Source: an uncultured Thermogutta sp.
GTDB lineage: Bacteria; Planctomycetota; Planctomycetia; Pirellulales; Thermoguttaceae
Reading direction: 5' to 3'
NCBI GenBank assembly: GCA_937128505.1
Contig: CAKZMM010000047.1
Location: forward strand, 1-47,631
Length of the DNA stretch: 47,631 bases
Within the stretch, counting starts at the first letter, position 1. Every line of letters starts with the position of its first letter. Both the position numbers and the translations under genes were made by a program. Below are positions 14,238 to 34,140 of this stretch, piece by piece. The notes under the pieces were generated by a model. It had not been told where the DNA came from. It made no database searches and saw only the letters and a list, made by a program, of their open reading frames with translations.

Positions 14238-15677
14238 GTGAACACGATGAGGCGTTTTTTCCCCCAACAAGCTGCGGGCGGAGCCTGGTTTTTTACCGCA
14301 GTTTGTTTGGCATTGATCCTAACTTCGTGGCCTTGTTGGGCGGAAAGCTGGAAAGCGGGCGTGGCCCGGGCCAAGATCACGCCGGAGCCGGGCATGTGGA
14401 TGGCCGGCTATGCGCTTCGCGATCATCCGGCAGAGGGGACCCTTCAGGATTTGTGGATCAAGGCTCTGGGGGTCGAGGATGGCCGCGGTTGTCGGGCGGT
14501 GGTCGTCACGTGTGATTTCTTGGGGTTTACGAGGGCATTGAGCGAGGAAATTGCCGCCCAGATCGAGAAACGCTTCGCGGTCCCCCGCGCCAATTTGATG
14601 TTTACGGCAAGCCATACGCATTGCGGGCCGGTGATCGAAGGGGCTTTGTACGATATTTATCCGCTAGACGAAACCCAGCGAAGGCTCATCACTGAATACA
14701 CGCGGCAATTATCTCGAACGGCGATCGATGTGATCGCGGCTGCGTTGGGCTCGATGGAGGAAGTAGAACTTTGGGCGGGAGAGGGCCGGGCCGAGTTTGC
14801 TGTCAATCGCCGAAATAATCGAGAGGTGGACGTGCCCGCTATGCGAGAAGCGGGTCGGCCACTGGTGGGTCCCAGTGATTTTCGGGTACCCGTCCTGTGC
14901 GTTCGGAGCAGAGATGGCCGTGCGAAGGCGCTCGTTTTCGGTTATGCCTGTCATGCGACGGTTCTCAGTTTTTATCAGTGGTGTGGCGACTATCCGGGGT
15001 TTGCGCAAGAAAATTTGGAGTCGCGGCTGCCGGGGGTAACCGCGATGTTCTACACCGGCTGCGGGGCGGATCAAAACGCCCTGCCCCGTCGCACCGTGGA
15101 ATTGGCTCAAGTATATGGTCGGCAATTGGCCGACGCGGTGGCGGCGGTGTTGGAGCGGCCAATGCGTCCAGTAAGCCCGCGATTGAGTACGAGTTTTGAG
15201 CGAATCCGGCTGGATTACGAGGTGGTGGACCGCGAGTATTTGGAAAAGTCAAGAGCCCAAGGCGGATATATTGGGCGATGGGCCGAGCGATTGCTTGGTC
15301 AATTGGCGGCCGGTGCGGTGTTTGCAAATTCGTATGAATATCCGGTGCAAGTTTGGCTCCTCGGAGAAGATCAGTGGTGGATCGCTTTGGGCGGGGAGGT
15401 TGTCGTCGATTATTCGCTGCGGTTAGTCGAAAAGTACGGACCGAGCACGTGGGTTGCCGGCTATTCGAATGATGTCATGGCGTATATCCCGTCTCGGCGC
15501 GTTTGGGAAGAGGGTGGATATGAATCCGGCGCTTTTACGGTTTATGGACTGCCGGCGAAGCGGTGGACTAACGACATTGAAGAGCGCATTTACGCGGCCA
15601 TTGCGGCGGGTATGGAGCAATGTCGACAACTGACCGCTTGTTCGGCGACGGTCGGAAGCGCGGGCCAAGCTCGGTGA
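14238..15677 (+). CDS. Secreted neutral/alkaline ceramidase-like hydrolase
   Basis: The protein has 479 residues from the GTG at 14238, with AGGAG ten bases upstream. It has an N-terminal signal peptide (hydrophobic 15-32, cut near CWA-ES). The body matches the neutral/alkaline non-lysosomal ceramidase N-terminal domain: VARAKITPE at 42-50, the zinc-ligand loop ASHTHCGP (H126, H128), the GYACHATVLS histidine segment and GCGADQN. Family members cleave amide bonds in ceramides, but the short planctomycete versions lack the C-terminal domain of true ceramidases and their substrate is unknown. It is followed after 60 nt by a Gfo/Idh/MocA gene on the same strand, probably one transcript. Confidence 0.85.
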   Translation: MNTMRRFFPQQAAGGAWFFTAVCLALILTSWPCWAESWKAGVARAKITPEPGMWMAGYALRDHPAEGTLQDLWIKALGVEDGRGCRAVVVTCDFLGFTRALSEEIAAQIEKRFAVPRANLMFTASHTHCGPVIEGALYDIYPLDETQRRLITEYTRQLSRTAIDVIAAALGSMEEVELWAGEGRAEFAVNRRNNREVDVPAMREAGRPLVGPSDFRVPVLCVRSRDGRAKALVFGYACHATVLSFYQWCGDYPGFAQENLESRLPGVTAMFYTGCGADQNALPRRTVELAQVYGRQLADAVAAVLERPMRPVSPRLSTSFERIRLDYEVVDREYLEKSRAQGGYIGRWAERLLGQLAAGAVFANSYEYPVQVWLLGEDQWWIALGGEVVVDYSLRLVEKYGPSTWVAGYSNDVMAYIPSRRVWEEGGYESGAFTVYGLPAKRWTNDIEERIYAAIAAGMEQCRQLTACSATVGSAGQAR

Positions 15678-27688: not shown

Positions 27689-28610
27689 GGTTAACCTCAA
27701 ACTAATCAAAGCTGGCAGCTAAAACAAATTTCGCAAGTTGTAGGTGAGGCAACCCAAACTGTGCACGATCGGGCATGCCCTCAGGTTTCGAGGGCTCACG
27801 ATGACGGTGAGTTCGTTTCGCCGATGCGCGTGAATGACCCGCGGGCTGCCTGGCTGAGGAGCGTTAAAGCATCCTCAACACCCTACCCCGTTACTACGAT
27901 AACTGAGACGCAAAAAAGTTTCACGGGGCTAGGCTTGGCATTTGGCAAGCCGGGTCGGTGAATTCTGCGAGGTCCGCTACGGCGGTATGCCCTCGTGCGG
28001 CGGAGTGCCTACACACTTTCGAAAGCAAAACAAATAAATAAGGGTAAGCCTAGCAGGATTCAAATACCAGGTGCGCGGACGAATTCGAGGAGTGTTGCGG
28101 TTTGTCTTCCGGAATATTCGTATTCAAGCAGCTCTCCTCAGAATATGGTGTGGTTGCGGACTTGGCCAGCACAGGCGCCACATAAGAAGATCGCGAGGAA
28201 GAGCTAAGCCCGCCCGGGTGCGGGATGATCGCGGGCTACCCGGATTGGCTGGATTTAGGGTGAATAAGTGCTCGTGGATCAGTTTTCGGAGCGTAGAATA
28301 CGCGGCTTTGTGGGCGAATCGTTGCGTGGGCAAGGGTTTGCGGGCATTCTGGTCCTGAGGATCCGGGTGCTAGATTGCAGGACTACCAACGATTAGAATA
28401 TGTTGAGGAGTAAGATGTTGTGGCGAGCCCTACCCTGAGCGGTCGCCCCTCGAATGGTCGAGCCGCTGCCCGCCAGTTTTTTTCCCAGTTGGAGATTCGG
28501 TGCTCGCCTGCCGCCCGAGGTCCGTTTCAGCGGGCAGGCCGAGTCCAGGGTGCTAAGTCGGGTGAGTGTGTGGGAAAGGTTGAAGGTTTTTGGATTTGAA
28601 GGAGTCGTCC
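27689..28610. other. Gene-free divergent spacer
   Basis: About 920 nt between the dehydrogenase (minus) and the DoxX-like gene (plus). No gene or strong structural element is seen. Confidence 0.5.
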
Positions 28611-29663
28611 TTGAACGGCTTTGCTGCGCGAATCGGCCTAACTTCTGTTGTTCTGCTGGTATTACTGCGGATAAGCATCGGCTGGCACTTTCTTTATGAG
28701 GGTGTTTGGAAGCTGGTGCAGCCGGATTTCTCCGCGGAATCCTACCTGCTGGTGGCCAAGGGTCCGCTAGCGCCGATGTTTTATGCCATGGTTCCGGATT
28801 TGTACGGGCGTCAACGGCTGCAATCAATGTCAGCAAAGGGGACCGGCGATTCTGAGATTTCCGCGGAATGTTACCTAACGGCTTGGCGGTCTTTCAAGGA
28901 CGAAGCCGTGAAATTTTACGCGATGGATGAAACTCAGCAGAAGGCCGCCGATGCATTGCTGAGTCAATACGAAACATCACTGAAGGAATACCTCCGGGAT
29001 CATGGGTCGGCAATCCGCGGTTATTTCACCAGCTTGGAGCTTTTCGAGGCCCGCGAACGCGCTGGAACCAACGGCGCGATCCATGAGCAAGAGCGTTTGT
29101 GGCAGGAGCAGCGAAAACTTTGGGCCGAGGTGCGACAGTGGCTCGATGAGCTCGACGGCATGGGACGTGATTTTCAGGCGGGGATTTGGGCCCTACTGAA
29201 CGAAGATCAGCAACAAAAAGGCTTACTGCGGCGGCCTGTGCATACGGCAGGGTTGCTGCCGATTCGTCTGCCTTTCGCTCAAACGTGGATGGAGTTGATC
29301 AATTTTTCGGTCAGTTGGGGGCTGACGGCTATTGGCATCTGTTTGATTGCCGGGCTATTCACGCGATTGGCGGCTTTGGGCGGGGCGGCGTTCTTGACTT
29401 TCATCATCATGACTCAGCCCCATTTGCCGAATATCTACCCATTGCCGCCCGAGGTGGTGGGCCACTTCTTGTTTGTGGATAAGAACTTCGTTGAGCTCGT
29501 GGCCCTGTTGGTGTTGGCAAGCACGGCCGTGGGGCAGTGGGGAGGCCTGGATTTCTTCGTGTACTGGTGGGTAGGCCGCCCGATTTTGCGTTGGATCGGT
29601 TGGGTTTCGGACGAGGCCCCAGTTCACCTGCACGCGGCGGATGCTGCTGCCCGAGTAAAATGA
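28611..29663 (+). CDS. DoxX-like integral membrane protein with large soluble insert
   Basis: The protein has 350 residues from a TTG at 28611 with GAAGGAG six bases upstream; the TTG at 28590 lies before that site. The first helix, VVLLVLLRISIGWHFLYEGVWKL, is the typical DoxX start. A soluble, charged, probably helical and coiled-coil insert of about 180 residues follows (to about 220). Three more hydrophobic helices come near the C-terminus, including AIGICLIAGLFTRLAALGGAAFL and the conserved LPPEVVGHFLFVDKNFVEL. DoxX proteins are small quinone-linked or redox-associated membrane proteins; the long insert is a planctomycete-type elaboration and its role is unknown. Two exported oxidoreductase genes follow on the same strand. 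Confidence 0.8.
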   Translation: MNGFAARIGLTSVVLLVLLRISIGWHFLYEGVWKLVQPDFSAESYLLVAKGPLAPMFYAMVPDLYGRQRLQSMSAKGTGDSEISAECYLTAWRSFKDEAVKFYAMDETQQKAADALLSQYETSLKEYLRDHGSAIRGYFTSLELFEARERAGTNGAIHEQERLWQEQRKLWAEVRQWLDELDGMGRDFQAGIWALLNEDQQQKGLLRRPVHTAGLLPIRLPFAQTWMELINFSVSWGLTAIGICLIAGLFTRLAALGGAAFLTFIIMTQPHLPNIYPLPPEVVGHFLFVDKNFVELVALLVLASTAVGQWGGLDFFVYWWVGRPILRWIGWVSDEAPVHLHAADAAARVK

Positions 29664-29972: not shown

Positions 29973-31667
29973 ATGATGCACGAAGTTTGGGAGCCGCGAA
30001 ACGATTTCTCCCGACGCGATTTCATTAAAGGTGGGCTGACCGCGGCTTTGGTCTCGGGCGGAAGCTTGGGGGCTTTCTATTTTGGATACGAGGCCACGTT
30101 GAGCCGCCCGGTACGGGTGGGGGTATTGGGAACGGGGGATGAGGGATCGGTTTTGATTGGGTCGATCAATCCGGAATATATTGAGGTGCAGGCGATAGCG
30201 GATGTGCGGCCATACAACATACATCGGGCCTTTCATGGGGATTGGTACAGCGAGGCGGCATGGAAGGCTCGTCCGGGGTTGCTAGCGAAGTATGGGTGGA
30301 AGACGGAGTCGGAAGCCCGGCGTCATGTGCGGGTGTATGGGGATTATCGGGAGTTACTGGAGGGGGAGCGAGGACGGATCGAGGGGGTGATTATAGCGTT
30401 GCCGTTATTTTTGCATGCTCCGGCGGCGATTGCGGCGATGAAGGCGGGGTTGCATGTATTGACGGAGAAGCTGATGGGGCACACGGTGGCCCAGTGTAAA
30501 GAGATGGCACGGGCGGCAAAGCTGGCGGGTAAGCACTTGGCCACAGGGCATCAGCGTCACTACAACATCCTGTATGCCGAAGCGGTGGACACGATCCGCC
30601 GCGGTTTGCTCGGGGACATTCATTTCATCCGTGGTCAGTGGCATCGGGGGAATTTGCCGGGCAACGATAGCTGGCAACCACCCATGCCAAAGGGGATCAA
30701 GCCTCAAGATCCTTTGGCCGATTCGCTGCAGCGGCAACTGCGGAGCTGGCGGGAAAAGCTTAAAGCAGCAAGGGGGCGGGAAATCGAGCTTTGGCGAAAG
30801 CGGGTGGCCCAGCTTGAGGCTCAAATCCGCGACGAAGTGCTGAAGGATTCCGCCGAAAAATTCGGTTACGAGTCGAAAGTTTACAAGGATGCCCAGGGGA
30901 ATGCTCTCTGGGAAAGACCGGCTGCTGAGGAGCTGATCCGGTGGCGGCTTTGGGATCGCACTGGGGCTGGCTTGATGGCGGAGCTGGGAAGCCATCAGCT
31001 CGATGCTGCCAGCATCTTTATCGCGGCAACTCACGGGGGAGAAAAGCAGTATCCCTTGCAGGTGGTGGCCGCGGCTAATCGACCCATTTTCGGTGCGGAT
31101 CGCGATGTGGAAAGCCATGTGGCTTGCGTGATCGATTTTCCGGCGCCGGGGTACGACCCTCGCGATCCGATTGCGGAACTTAAGCGAATTTCGGTCCAAT
31201 ACGCCTCGATTAACGGCAATGGCTTCGGCGGTTACGGCGAGATCGTTTTCGGAACAAAAGGGACGTTGATCCTCGAGCGGGAGCAGGTGAAACGGCTTTA
31301 TTTGGACTCAGGCGGCACAACGGTAACCGCTACCGCCGGAGGGGGCCCTGCCCTAGATACCCTTGCCACCGCTCCGCAACAGGCGGCTGCCGGCGGGATG
31401 ATGGGGCAAATGGCCGAAGTCAGCCGGGGCTATCGTGAAGAGTTGGAGCATTGGGCCTGGTGTATTCGCCGAAACCCGGATCTAGCCGATCCGGAGATCC
31501 AGCCGAAATGTCACCCGAAGGTGGCTTTGGCCGATGCGGTCATCGCTTTAGTCACCAACATGGCAGCTAGGCAAGGCACGAGTATTAAGTTCAAGAAAGA
31601 GTGGTTCGATCCCAATCGGGATGAAACACCGGAGGGTACGGTACCCGACATTTCACGATACGCGTAG
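29973..31667 (+). CDS. Exported Gfo/Idh/MocA oxidoreductase, paralogue 1
   Basis: The protein has 564 residues. A twin-arginine signal FSRRDFIKGG (12-21) leads a hydrophobic segment to about residue 38. The NAD-binding motif is GTGDEG at 53-58. The family EKP motif is replaced by EKL (165-167). After GHQRHYNILY comes WHRGNLPGNDSWQPP. Then a highly charged, probably coiled-coil insertion (about 250-293) precedes the C-terminal domain with EELIRWRLWDRTGAGLM and GSHQLDAAS. It is probably a periplasmic sugar oxidoreductase; substrate unknown. Residues 46-192 are encoded by a 440-bp block identical in DNA to the next gene, with a distinct codon style (11 of 15 Gly codons are GGG, none GGC). Confidence 0.9.
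   Translation: MMHEVWEPRNDFSRRDFIKGGLTAALVSGGSLGAFYFGYEATLSRPVRVGVLGTGDEGSVLIGSINPEYIEVQAIADVRPYNIHRAFHGDWYSEAAWKARPGLLAKYGWKTESEARRHVRVYGDYRELLEGERGRIEGVIIALPLFLHAPAAIAAMKAGLHVLTEKLMGHTVAQCKEMARAAKLAGKHLATGHQRHYNILYAEAVDTIRRGLLGDIHFIRGQWHRGNLPGNDSWQPPMPKGIKPQDPLADSLQRQLRSWREKLKAARGREIELWRKRVAQLEAQIRDEVLKDSAEKFGYESKVYKDAQGNALWERPAAEELIRWRLWDRTGAGLMAELGSHQLDAASIFIAATHGGEKQYPLQVVAAANRPIFGADRDVESHVACVIDFPAPGYDPRDPIAELKRISVQYASINGNGFGGYGEIVFGTKGTLILEREQVKRLYLDSGGTTVTATAGGGPALDTLATAPQQAAAGGMMGQMAEVSRGYREELEHWAWCIRRNPDLADPEIQPKCHPKVALADAVIALVTNMAARQGTSIKFKKEWFDPNRDETPEGTVPDISRYA
30108..30547 (+). repeat. 440-bp block identical to 32575-33014
   Basis: Base-by-base comparison shows no difference from the block in the next paralogue, at a constant offset of 2467 nt. 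Identity stops abruptly at both ends. A second identical 48-bp block follows at 30636-30683 (partner 33103-33150) in the same register. It covers the Rossmann NAD-binding domain. Confidence 0.97.
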
Positions 31668-32406
31668 TCTTTCCGGATATCCCTTCGTTTTTCTGATATT
31701 CGTTTCAAATACTCGGCGAGAGGACGGAAAGTGATTCTTGAGAATCTCGTGATTCTTGAGAATCTCGGAGGATAAAGAAAAGCGACTCTTAAGAATTTTT
31801 AGGGATAAAGATTTTTAGGGATAAAGAAGGAAGAATTTTTTGGGGACAGAGAAATAAGAATTTTTGGAGGGTAAAGAAATAAGAATTTTCGGAGCATAAA
31901 AAGATAAGAATTTTCGAATGAGAATTCTCGGAGGATCAAGCAAGAACGAAGACAACGAAAAGAAGTGACCGGTCGCGGAGGCTAAGAAAAAGGAAATGGG
32001 CTGGAGCACAGACCGACCAGTTTGGATGGGCGCCCAAATCTCGCGCGATGAGTGCAATCTCTCCATCGATCAATTCAATCGAACAATTAATGGATGCATA
32101 TTGCGACGCGAAAAGTTGGTTGCTCAATCGATTCAACCTACGGGATACTGAAGGTGGAATAATCGTAGCTTACGGCGTAGGGATCGTAGTTTATCCCCGA
32201 GTGGGGCCGGACTCTCAGAGCGACCCATAGAGTAGCTCCCTACGTCGAGTAGTTCCTTAGCGCGGAAATTAGGGAGATATGAAAGGGCAGAGGACTGCCA
32301 AATAGGGGACAAATAAGGAAATAGATAGACTAAGCGGAAAAGCACAGTGGAGCAAAGCTCACTGGCGAACGACAAGTGAAAAGTTCCTTTGCGGGGGTTG
32401 CTGGTG
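31668..32406. other. Gene-free spacer dominated by tandem repeats
   Basis: About 740 nt between the two paralogues. The first 270 nt are almost all short tandem repeats; the remainder shows no gene. Confidence 0.6.
31731..31935. repeat. Purine-rich compound tandem-repeat array
   Basis: Three repeat systems follow one another. GTGATTCTTGAGAATCTC is exactly duplicated (31731-31766). ATTTTTAGGGATAAAG is exactly duplicated (31795-31826). A 25-nt unit beginning AAGAATTTT and carrying GGAG(G)-rich and AAAGAAAT segments recurs at 31831, 31856, 31881 and 31906. All share a related A/G-rich theme, suggesting stepwise expansion from one ancestral unit. Confidence 0.9.
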
Positions 32407-34140
32407 ATGGATTTGACGTCTGAACATAGGACGATCGGTAAGCAGAATTTTGCCGCGGCGGTTGCTAGCCCGCTCGTTCGGCGTGATTTCTTGTTGGGGG
32501 CGGTGCGGCAAGGGCTGAGTTCCGGGCGCGGTTTGGGGGTTTATTACTTCGGCTATGAACCCAACATCGAAAAGCCGGTACGGGTGGGGGTATTGGGAAC
32601 GGGGGATGAGGGATCGGTTTTGATTGGGTCGATCAATCCGGAATATATTGAGGTGCAGGCGATAGCGGATGTGCGGCCATACAACATACATCGGGCCTTT
32701 CATGGGGATTGGTACAGCGAGGCGGCATGGAAGGCTCGTCCGGGGTTGCTAGCGAAGTATGGGTGGAAGACGGAGTCGGAAGCCCGGCGTCATGTGCGGG
32801 TGTATGGGGATTATCGGGAGTTACTGGAGGGGGAGCGAGGACGGATCGAGGGGGTGATTATAGCGTTGCCGTTATTTTTGCATGCTCCGGCGGCGATTGC
32901 GGCGATGAAGGCGGGGTTGCATGTATTGACGGAGAAGCTGATGGGGCACACGGTGGCCCAGTGTAAAGAGATGGCACGGGCGGCAAAGCTGGCGGGTAAG
33001 CACTTGGCCACAGGTCATCAACGTCACTATAGCATCCTGTATGACAACGCCCTGGAATTAGTCCGCAGAGGGCTGATTGGGTCTTTGCACTATATTCGGG
33101 CGCAGTGGCATCGGGGGAATTTGCCGGGCAACGATAGCTGGCAACCACCCTTACCGCGGGGGGCTAAACCGGACGATGCTTTGGCGGGCACCCTGGAGCG
33201 GGAATTGGCGGCGTGGGAAAAAAGGCTGGCTGAGCTCAGGAATAATCCAAAATCATCTCCGACCGAAATAGAGCTTTGGGAAAAACGGGTTGCTCAGAAA
33301 CGGGCACAGCTGGACGACGAGTTGGTCGCCGAATCGGTCAAGAATTGGGGCTACGAGGATGCGGTGATTGCCGGGCAGTATCGTCGCCCGGCTATCGAGG
33401 AACTCATCCGGTGGCGGTTATGGCAGCGGACCGGTGGGGGATTAATGGCTGAGTTGGGGAGCCATCAATTAGATGCTGCCAGCCTGTTTATCGCTGCGGC
33501 TCATGGCGGTGTGAAGCAAAAGCCTTTGAGTGTGGCTGCTTTGGCCAATCGGCCGCTTTTCCCGCCCGATCGGGAAGTGGAAGATCATATCTACTGCATT
33601 TTTGAGTTCCCGGCACCCGGGTACGACGAAAACTCGGAGGTCGACCGTCTGAAACGAATTACCGTGGCCTATTCTTCAATCAACGGCAACGGTTGGGGAG
33701 GATACGGCGAAACGGTCTTCGGGACGGAAGGCACTTTGATTCTCGAACGCGAGAGCGAGGCTTCGCTGTATCGGACGCACGAAGTGGGCAGTTATGTTGA
33801 GATCCGAGGGACACCGGAAAAACCAAAGTTGGAAATCGTGGACATGCCGGATGAACCTTCGGTGGTTATCGGCCAACACGCCTTGCTGGAGGTGACCCGC
33901 GGCTATACGGAACAGCTCGAGCATTGGGCTTGGTGCATTCGGCGGAATCCGACGGCTTCGGACCCGGATGTTCGCCCGCGGTGTCATCCGGAGGTTGCCT
34001 TGGGGGATGCGGTCATCGCGCTAACGGCCAACTTGGCGGCTCGGCGGGGAGAGAGGATCGATTTCGATCCGGCTTGGTTCGAGCCGGATCTAGATCGAAC
34101 TCCGGAGGGAATTGCTCCCGATTTAGCGCGTTACGCATGA
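32407..34140 (+). CDS. Exported Gfo/Idh/MocA oxidoreductase, paralogue 2
   Basis: The protein has 577 residues from the ATG at 32407; a TTG at 32389 is possible. It is a close paralogue of the gene before it, with the same domain order: twin-arginine region, NAD-binding domain encoded by the shared 440-bp block, EKL in place of EKP, a charged coiled-coil-like insert (about 260-312) and the C-terminal GSHQLDAAS domain. Its leader VRRDFLLGAVRQGLSSGRG aligns with paralogue 1 but has Arg and Gln within what should be the hydrophobic core, so export may be weakened or lost. Outside the identical block the two genes differ at many synonymous sites. It is probably a sugar oxidoreductase of unknown substrate. 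Confidence 0.9.
   Translation: MDLTSEHRTIGKQNFAAAVASPLVRRDFLLGAVRQGLSSGRGLGVYYFGYEPNIEKPVRVGVLGTGDEGSVLIGSINPEYIEVQAIADVRPYNIHRAFHGDWYSEAAWKARPGLLAKYGWKTESEARRHVRVYGDYRELLEGERGRIEGVIIALPLFLHAPAAIAAMKAGLHVLTEKLMGHTVAQCKEMARAAKLAGKHLATGHQRHYSILYDNALELVRRGLIGSLHYIRAQWHRGNLPGNDSWQPPLPRGAKPDDALAGTLERELAAWEKRLAELRNNPKSSPTEIELWEKRVAQKRAQLDDELVAESVKNWGYEDAVIAGQYRRPAIEELIRWRLWQRTGGGLMAELGSHQLDAASLFIAAAHGGVKQKPLSVAALANRPLFPPDREVEDHIYCIFEFPAPGYDENSEVDRLKRITVAYSSINGNGWGGYGETVFGTEGTLILERESEASLYRTHEVGSYVEIRGTPEKPKLEIVDMPDEPSVVIGQHALLEVTRGYTEQLEHWAWCIRRNPTASDPDVRPRCHPEVALGDAVIALTANLAARRGERIDFDPAWFEPDLDRTPEGIAPDLARYA
32575..33014 (+). repeat. 440-bp block identical to 30108-30547
   Basis: This is the partner copy of the conversion tract in paralogue 1. 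See that entry for the boundaries and the second 48-bp identical block (33103-33150 here). Confidence 0.97.

Follow-up and report, generated by a model that had tools for sequence, protein, structure and literature searches.

Probable recent gene conversion of the NAD-binding domain in a tandem pair of Gfo/Idh/MocA-like oxidoreductase genes from an uncultured Thermogutta

The stretch analyzed here, referred to as the window, is the entire contig C47 (CAKZMM010000047.1; 47,631 nt) of the assembly GCA_937128505.1 from an uncultured Thermogutta sp., which comprises 198 contigs and is 98% complete. It carries two tandem genes for proteins that are predicted, based on their sequences, to be Gfo/Idh/MocA-like oxidoreductases, and these genes share a 440-bp block of exact identity which we read as a probable gene-conversion tract. 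The upstream copy, paralogue 1 (29973–31667, + strand), is an open reading frame (ORF) of 564 amino acids and falls into a class termed 'a' in trees of the sequence outside the nicotinamide adenine dinucleotide (NAD)-binding domain. The downstream copy, paralogue 2 (32407–34140, + strand), encodes about 577 amino acids and belongs to class 'b'. Its frame is open already from a TTG at 32389, and the consensus N-terminus in an alignment of 40 sequences favors the ATG at 32407 as the probable start. Both proteins match PF01408, the NAD-binding Rossmann domain, with 48.4 and 48.1 bits, respectively (cut-off 24), as well as the C-terminal alpha/beta domain PF22725, for which paralogue 1 scores barely above the cut-off of 27 (27.1 bits) and paralogue 2 reaches 38.6 bits; paralogue 2 also matches PF02894 (25.8 bits, cut-off 22.9). 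None of the NCBIfam equivalog cut-offs was reached by either protein. GxGxxG and E-K are motifs of Gfo/Idh/MocA oxidoreductases, and the corresponding residues G53, G55, G58, E165, and K166 are invariant across the 40 aligned sequences. An RR motif at the N-terminus of both paralogues looks, by inspection, like a twin-arginine translocation (Tat) signal.

The first copy of the identical block (30108–30547, + strand) covers codons 46–191 and two bases of codon 192 of paralogue 1, and the second lies at 32575–33014 (+ strand) in paralogue 2. Recomputation reproduced the first-pass annotation, which had reported 440 of 440 identical bases at a constant offset of 2467 nt and a further exact run of 48 bp in register with them. 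This shorter run spans 30636–30683 (+ strand; codons 222–237 of paralogue 1, inside the conserved WHRGNLPGNDSW segment) and 33103–33150 (+ strand) in paralogue 2; at the offset of 2467 the block and this run are the only ones of at least 12 nt in the window. Two 60-nt segments before the block show identities of 0.43 and 0.52 and the segment after it (30580–30639) of 0.57, and codon 192, in which the tract stops, is GGG in one copy versus GGT in the other. Across residues 46–192, 140 of 141 codons for the same residue are alike between the paralogues, the exception fitting codon 192. Elsewhere the genes are diverged, as had been claimed, with alike codons at 4/17 (residues 1–45), 8/17 (193–221), 42/87 (238–400), and 36/84 (a further stretch) positions; near-zero synonymous divergence was looked for in the flanks and is not what we found.

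Comparison with relatives, which are denoted by G numbers, indicates how unusual the block is. In the two congeners G001 and G002, the NAD domains of the a and b copies share 68% and 71% DNA identity, and same-residue codons are alike at 35 of 105 (33%) and 45 of 113 (40%) positions. The 440 nt observed here exceed every other exact run in the 53 tandem pairs, the next being 56 nt. The 48-nt run possibly represents a short second conversion tract. All 14 of its same-residue codons are alike (6/13 and 4/13 in the congeners), and it is nevertheless weaker evidence, as it is exceeded by the exact runs of two of the 52 other pairs (56 and 55 nt) and equalled by that of a third. No further copy of the block was found in its own assembly, where it occurs twice and both times within an intact ORF, and an exact-word scan of a 0.55-Mb genome sample including the window revealed no other exact repeat of more than 77 nt. 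A residue change just past the tract is not private to paralogue 2: HYSIL is present in 16 of 145 rows.

The block corresponds to the Rossmann NAD-binding domain, as initially proposed. In an AlphaFold2 model based on 40 sequences from the window and its relatives (mean predicted local distance difference test score 79.7; predicted template modeling score 0.82), the first Rossmann strand spans residues 47–52 and the last one residues 189–191; the tract starts just before the former and stops at the end of the latter, and the PF01408 match ends at residue 193. Low-confidence segments of the model are 1–30 and 433–483. The glucose-fructose oxidoreductase of Zymomonas mobilis is both the nearest solved fold (1h6d) and the best sequence-profile match (1evj and others). 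It has in common with our proteins a Rossmann NAD(P) domain and an alpha/beta domain, at about 17% identity, whereas the best target comprises 382 residues compared with 564 and about 577 here, and a helical insert (about 250–300) and the low-confidence 433–483 loop are extra in the Thermogutta proteins. The Zymomonas enzyme is Tat-exported.

We interpret the block as a very recent, non-reciprocal gene-conversion tract between directly repeated tandem paralogues 2.5 kb apart, and assign this reading a probability of roughly 0.8. Recent conversion of the NAD domain, already suggested by the first-pass annotation, is well supported by the 440/440 identity, the diverged flanks, and the old duplication. 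A recent partial duplication or insertion was rejected because the block occupies homologous codons of two full-length genes with old, homologous flanks. It is hardly credible that conversion played no part, and that purifying selection keeps the NAD domains alike while few informative sites intermix the NAD tree. The NAD domain is indeed more alike than the rest between copies in every pair for which both were measured, and the NAD trees have only 148 columns. However, selection on the protein offers no way to bring some 140 codon choices into identity, given that the two copies within each congener share only 33% and 40% of their same-residue codons there, and the NAD data reject monophyly of the classes (p = 0.015 in an approximately unbiased (AU) test, p-AU). 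For the 440-bp block, selection alone is refuted by the codon identity.

This tandem arrangement recurs in the relatives, where a DoxX-like gene usually precedes the two genes. Related loci come from planctomycetes (Thermoguttaceae, Pirellulales, and others), and nearly all of the records are titled metagenome-assembled genomes (MAGs). For the comparison, nine pairs from L-numbered loci were removed as duplicates of G genomes, and 11 new pairs and nine single copies were added. G008 was left out of pair counts and trees due to its aberrant b copy, and the NAD counts refer to 51 other pairs, as one copy of G048 is without NAD columns. Loci from other families, together with G021, were excluded from the careful NAD tree, the trees of 48 + 48 rows, and the AU tests; the trees of 48 + 48 rows and the donor-direction AU test also left out G019, G023, G048, G070, and G071, the donor-direction test G000b as well, and the test of class monophyly G019, G023, and the window genome. 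The second copy of G008 (locus L059) is strongly diverged, with 49% identity in the NAD domain, 28–45% in later segments, and 20–22% at the N-terminus, which would fit a release from constraint. G026, from another family, has two copies, neither of which fits class a or b, and G021, from the same family, has a single copy outside both classes.

Outside the NAD domain, one label change is enough to part the classes a and b in the tree of 48 + 48 rows, and the duplication therefore predates most of the family's radiation; on the evidence of these sequences, the pair is an ancient tandem duplicate kept across the family. The earlier proposal that conversion created new domain-swapped enzymes does not fit this history, as the pair is ancient and the NAD domain has apparently been shared repeatedly. 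In the NAD-domain tree, a and b are intermixed with 13 label changes. A careful tree of the 148 columns requires 14 changes for label a, and none of 200 bootstrap trees has 1. The six copies from the window's genus fall into a single group (support 100/96 in the careful tree and 97 in the tree of 48 + 48 rows), both G009 copies fall together (99/93 and 96), and so do both G020 copies (99/94; 95 with G053). With the window genome left out, the NAD data reject the b class as a single clade in the AU test already mentioned. The outside-NAD data, in turn, reject joining both copies for G001/G002 (p = 0.019), G009 (p = 0.035), and G020 (p = 0.0018), groups which were chosen after a tree had been seen. 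We also compared distances in one genome per genus, without the window genome: for the NAD domain, 22 of 25 genera have the own paralogue nearer than the average orthologue of the same class, versus 0 of 25 for residues 1–45 and 0 of 25 for residues 426–483. Within the 51 other pairs, DNA identity of the NAD domains ranges from 57 to 81% (mean 73%).

Several observations weigh against this reading or narrow it. Without the window genome, quick-tree support for the joint NAD groups is modest (75 for G001/G002, 43 for G009, and 92 for G020), and many genomes retain class signal in the NAD domain. An excess of nearer own paralogues is also seen at residues 351–425 (15/25) and 484–564 (15/23), with a smaller one at 193–260 (13/25) and 261–350 (9/25), indicating that the older exchanges were probably not confined to the NAD domain and extended beyond it; the term 'domain-limited' is strictly true for the recent tract alone. 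The quick trees are sub-optimal, with better ones found when groups were held together, and the exact change counts are therefore approximate. Neither class can be assigned as donor: of the diagnostic residues in the block, 10 resemble a, 7 resemble b, and 2 fit neither class, and the AU test does not separate the two directions (p = 0.84 and 0.87). Such a mixture would be expected if the genus ancestor already had a shared NAD domain and the congener copies drifted apart afterwards. The 17 class-informative residues alternate between a-like and b-like in 13 runs versus about 9 expected, so that nothing points to a series of short tracts contributed by different donors. Moreover, simple conversion does not account for the extreme G-ending codon style of the block described below, and the draft state of the assembly is a further point on this side.

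The assembly is in 198 contigs, and exact 77-nt overlaps at several sampled contig ends suggest that it stems from an assembler of the short-read graph type, in which copies that are nearly the same may be merged. Short reads have difficulty with an exact repeat of 440 bp, and the related records are, as mentioned, nearly all MAGs. Two similar, unequal NAD segments could have been collapsed or gap-filled to one consensus, yet we regard this as improbable. The flanks differ up to both edges in both genes, with no long common words leading into the block, so that a false join would be needed twice at the same codon. Furthermore, both copies lie mid-contig, the block edges coincide with the domain, and a collapse presupposes near-identical copies, which by itself implies recent conversion. 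Merging of near-identical copies could mean that the identity of 100% is a few per cent too high. Exact stretches of 73–77 nt are shared at or near the ends of L133, L142, L152, L154, L168, and other sampled contigs of the window's genome, and likely reflect the word length of the assembler.

Under gene conversion, RecA-dependent strand invasion would bring together the two NAD-domain segments, where the genes resemble each other most, and one copy would then overwrite the other in a one-way manner. The signal segment (residues 1–45) and the variable loop (426–483) would stay class-specific, either for want of the likeness needed for pairing or through selection against converted forms. Earlier NAD-domain events appear to have occurred in the ancestor of this genus, in the G009 lineage, and in the G020/G053 lineage, with the current tract as the latest. 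In this way, evolution of the NAD domain would be partly concerted, with class identity retained by the remainder of each gene.

The codon style of the block was noted at first sight, and the counts given then are exact: among the glycine codons, there are 11 GGG, 3 GGA, 1 GGT, and no GGC, together with three ATA codons. A permutation test bears out the claimed difference from the flanks (p = 0.0005 for both together; p = 0.0025 and 0.0145 for each alone). The block also differs from the other ORFs of the window (p = 0.002), where 1 of 48 yardstick segments gave p ≤ 0.01. At its 76 four-fold degenerate (4-fold) sites, the fraction of G is 0.70 and that of C 0.05. The highest 4-fold G in 177 segments of other window ORFs is 0.56, and none of 3670 overlapping segments from 247 ORFs in the 0.55-Mb genome sample, window included, reaches a G of 0.70 or a C of 0.053. 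For 4-fold G in the NAD domain, the two block copies top 144 homologue rows, the next value being 0.58, and the congeners show 0.25–0.42 in these genes. Moreover, no other 440-nt stretch of the window is as GC-skewed as the two copies (0.405). Overall G+C is hardly shifted (0.59 vs 0.58), with G up and C down, and an averaged codon-typicality score did not reveal the style of the block (51st percentile). An overlapping gene as its cause was rejected, as no other frame is open across the block, and so was a general skew of NAD domains, where the mean difference is 0.028 in 142 homologues versus 0.57 and 0.40 here. The two candidate causes are import from an unsampled congener and a bias linked to conversion.

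It seems doubtful that import came first and copying second, i.e., that one paralogue acquired its NAD-domain tract from a congener outside the sample, one with G-ending codons, and that the tract was then copied into the other. Such an origin would agree with a codon usage unlike that of the flanks and the other ORFs, with 4-fold G and C values unmatched in the genome sample, and with the NAD domains of G001 and G002, which show no significant codon difference from their own flanks (p 0.15–0.60). In contrast, matches to most of the block have at most 73% identity in 119 genomes of the family and 396 of the order (counts that include the own genome and overlaps), and the 4-fold G of the block is not attained by any of the 142 other homologues, congeners among them. 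The protein encoded by the block groups with its own genus, with the support of 100/96 and 97 given above. Searches of plasmid and phage sequences with the block gave no match; short pieces of it match other genomes with up to 93% over 28 nt and were given no weight. The first-pass suggestion of a third donor elsewhere is not supported, given the two copies in a 98%-complete assembly, the lack of an outside match above 73% over most of the block, and the grouping of the block protein with the two other species of the genus.

The second candidate is a strand-asymmetric conversion bias or a hotspot formed by an R-loop or G-quadruplex, in which G-rich non-template DNA promotes repeated exchange and repair favors G over C, which would make the block a product of conversion as well as its cause. 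On the coding strand, a G-quadruplex motif (30115–30138, + strand) lies 7 nt in from the left edge of the tract, with the same motif in the second copy (32582–32605, + strand), and such motifs occur only once per 26 kb in a genome sample. The extreme GC skew of the block copies and the unmatched 4-fold G/C skew point in the same direction, and conversion started by a G-quadruplex is known for gonococcal pilE (PMC3547852). However, excess likeness of the NAD domains and skew are uncorrelated in the 51 other pairs (rho = −0.04, p = 0.76), 84 of the 87 other homologues checked are without such a motif in the NAD domain, and the GxGxxG motif alone makes G-runs likely. We therefore rate this cause as quite unlikely. 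It is more of a long shot still that the NAD segment is a self-reinforcing hotspot, in which G-rich, C-poor DNA of the coding strand with a G-quadruplex at the tract edge provokes repeated exchange and strand-asymmetric repair of heteroduplexes drives third positions to G. If this were true, a metabolic gene pair would bear a compositional scar of conversion unlike that of GC-biased conversion, with G up and C down.

The window contains five G-quadruplex motifs, at 14773, 15852, 16489, 30115, and 32582, all of them on the + strand. At 4-fold sites, G exceeds C in most forward genes, and most reverse genes show the opposite or no excess, as if the + strand were the leading strand. Upstream of the pair lies a gene for a DoxX-like membrane protein (28590–29663, + strand; PF07681), a conserved neighbor with a homologue at 70 of 80 non-window loci, some of which are one record counted twice. 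According to the ORF limits, the spacer between the paralogues (31668–32406) measures about 740 bp, whereas the two congeners have roughly 230–300 bp and several other genera a few tens. It contains three tandem-repeat rows (31731–31914), one of which consists of about four copies of a 25-mer. In total, 16 tandem-repeat rows are found in the 47.6 kb of the window, with units of 14–40 bp and mostly two to three copies, and all fall outside the listed ORFs of at least 250 amino acids. Elsewhere in the genome, a frame of 1552 residues (L140:9475–14130, − strand) joins a match to PF18582, the middle domain of hydrazine synthase alpha, and an FGE-sulfatase domain (PF03781).

The block appears to show a domain-sized conversion between old bacterial tandem duplicates caught almost as it happened, with controls at hand in two congeners without the block and about 50 further pairs. 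It offers a bacterial counterpart to the mtrA genes discussed below, and a route to ask why concerted evolution is limited to some parts of a gene pair. A further lesson is that cofactor-domain trees of such genes can mislead. The scar of G over C in the codons has no match in the tenth of the genome that was sampled, and might open a way to put strand-biased conversion or cryptic import to the test.

Literature searches on gene conversion in Thermoguttaceae gave no report of this pair, and it is absent among the matches listed for gene conversion in Planctomycetes and for concerted evolution of bacterial tandem duplicates; a search on concerted evolution of dehydrogenase NAD-binding domains led to primate ADH and not to this pair. 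Long-lasting concerted evolution has been described for 26 prokaryote genes, including tuf, amoCAB, and psbA (PMC6053082). Tables 1 and 2 of that study contain no Gfo/Idh/MocA gene, and a word search of its main text gave no planctomycete. As in our pair, paralogues of tuf, amoCAB, and psbA have been converted repeatedly over long times, with the difference that they are described as alike over nearly the full gene length (PMC6053082). Gonococcal pilE resembles our case in that conversion is segmental and a G-quadruplex motif lies close to the converted tract; here it is a motif match at 30115 and 32582. In contrast to the two intact genes of the window, pilE is a programmed system with silent copies and a G-quadruplex-associated small RNA (PMC3547852). 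No silent donor copies were found, as both occurrences of the block in the assembly lie in intact ORFs, and no Rfam family was detected in the window.

The closest published parallel is provided by mtrA-1 and mtrA-2 of methanogens, ancient tandem duplicates in which one domain is homogenized by recurrent conversion and another part kept apart (PMC4632066). In both systems, paralogues cluster by species in the shared domain. This domain averages 92.4% and 99.7% identity within species of two orders for mtrA (PMC4632066), compared with a mean of 73% at the DNA level in the 51 other pairs and a single very recent event here, and these other pairs, at 57–81%, do not show the identity above 90% that marks the shared domain in most species of an mtrA-type system. 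A duplication older than the compared species, in turn, is seen here as well, with one label change outside the NAD domain, and grouping of own-species paralogues together with rejection of class monophyly is found in part. The mtrA genes encode an archaeal methyltransferase subunit with a distinct membrane domain (PMC4632066), whereas our pair combines a bacterial Rossmann domain with an RR signal motif. Thus, domain-restricted recurrent conversion of tandem duplicates is already known from mtrA, and the present pair shows an unusual compositional feature in addition.

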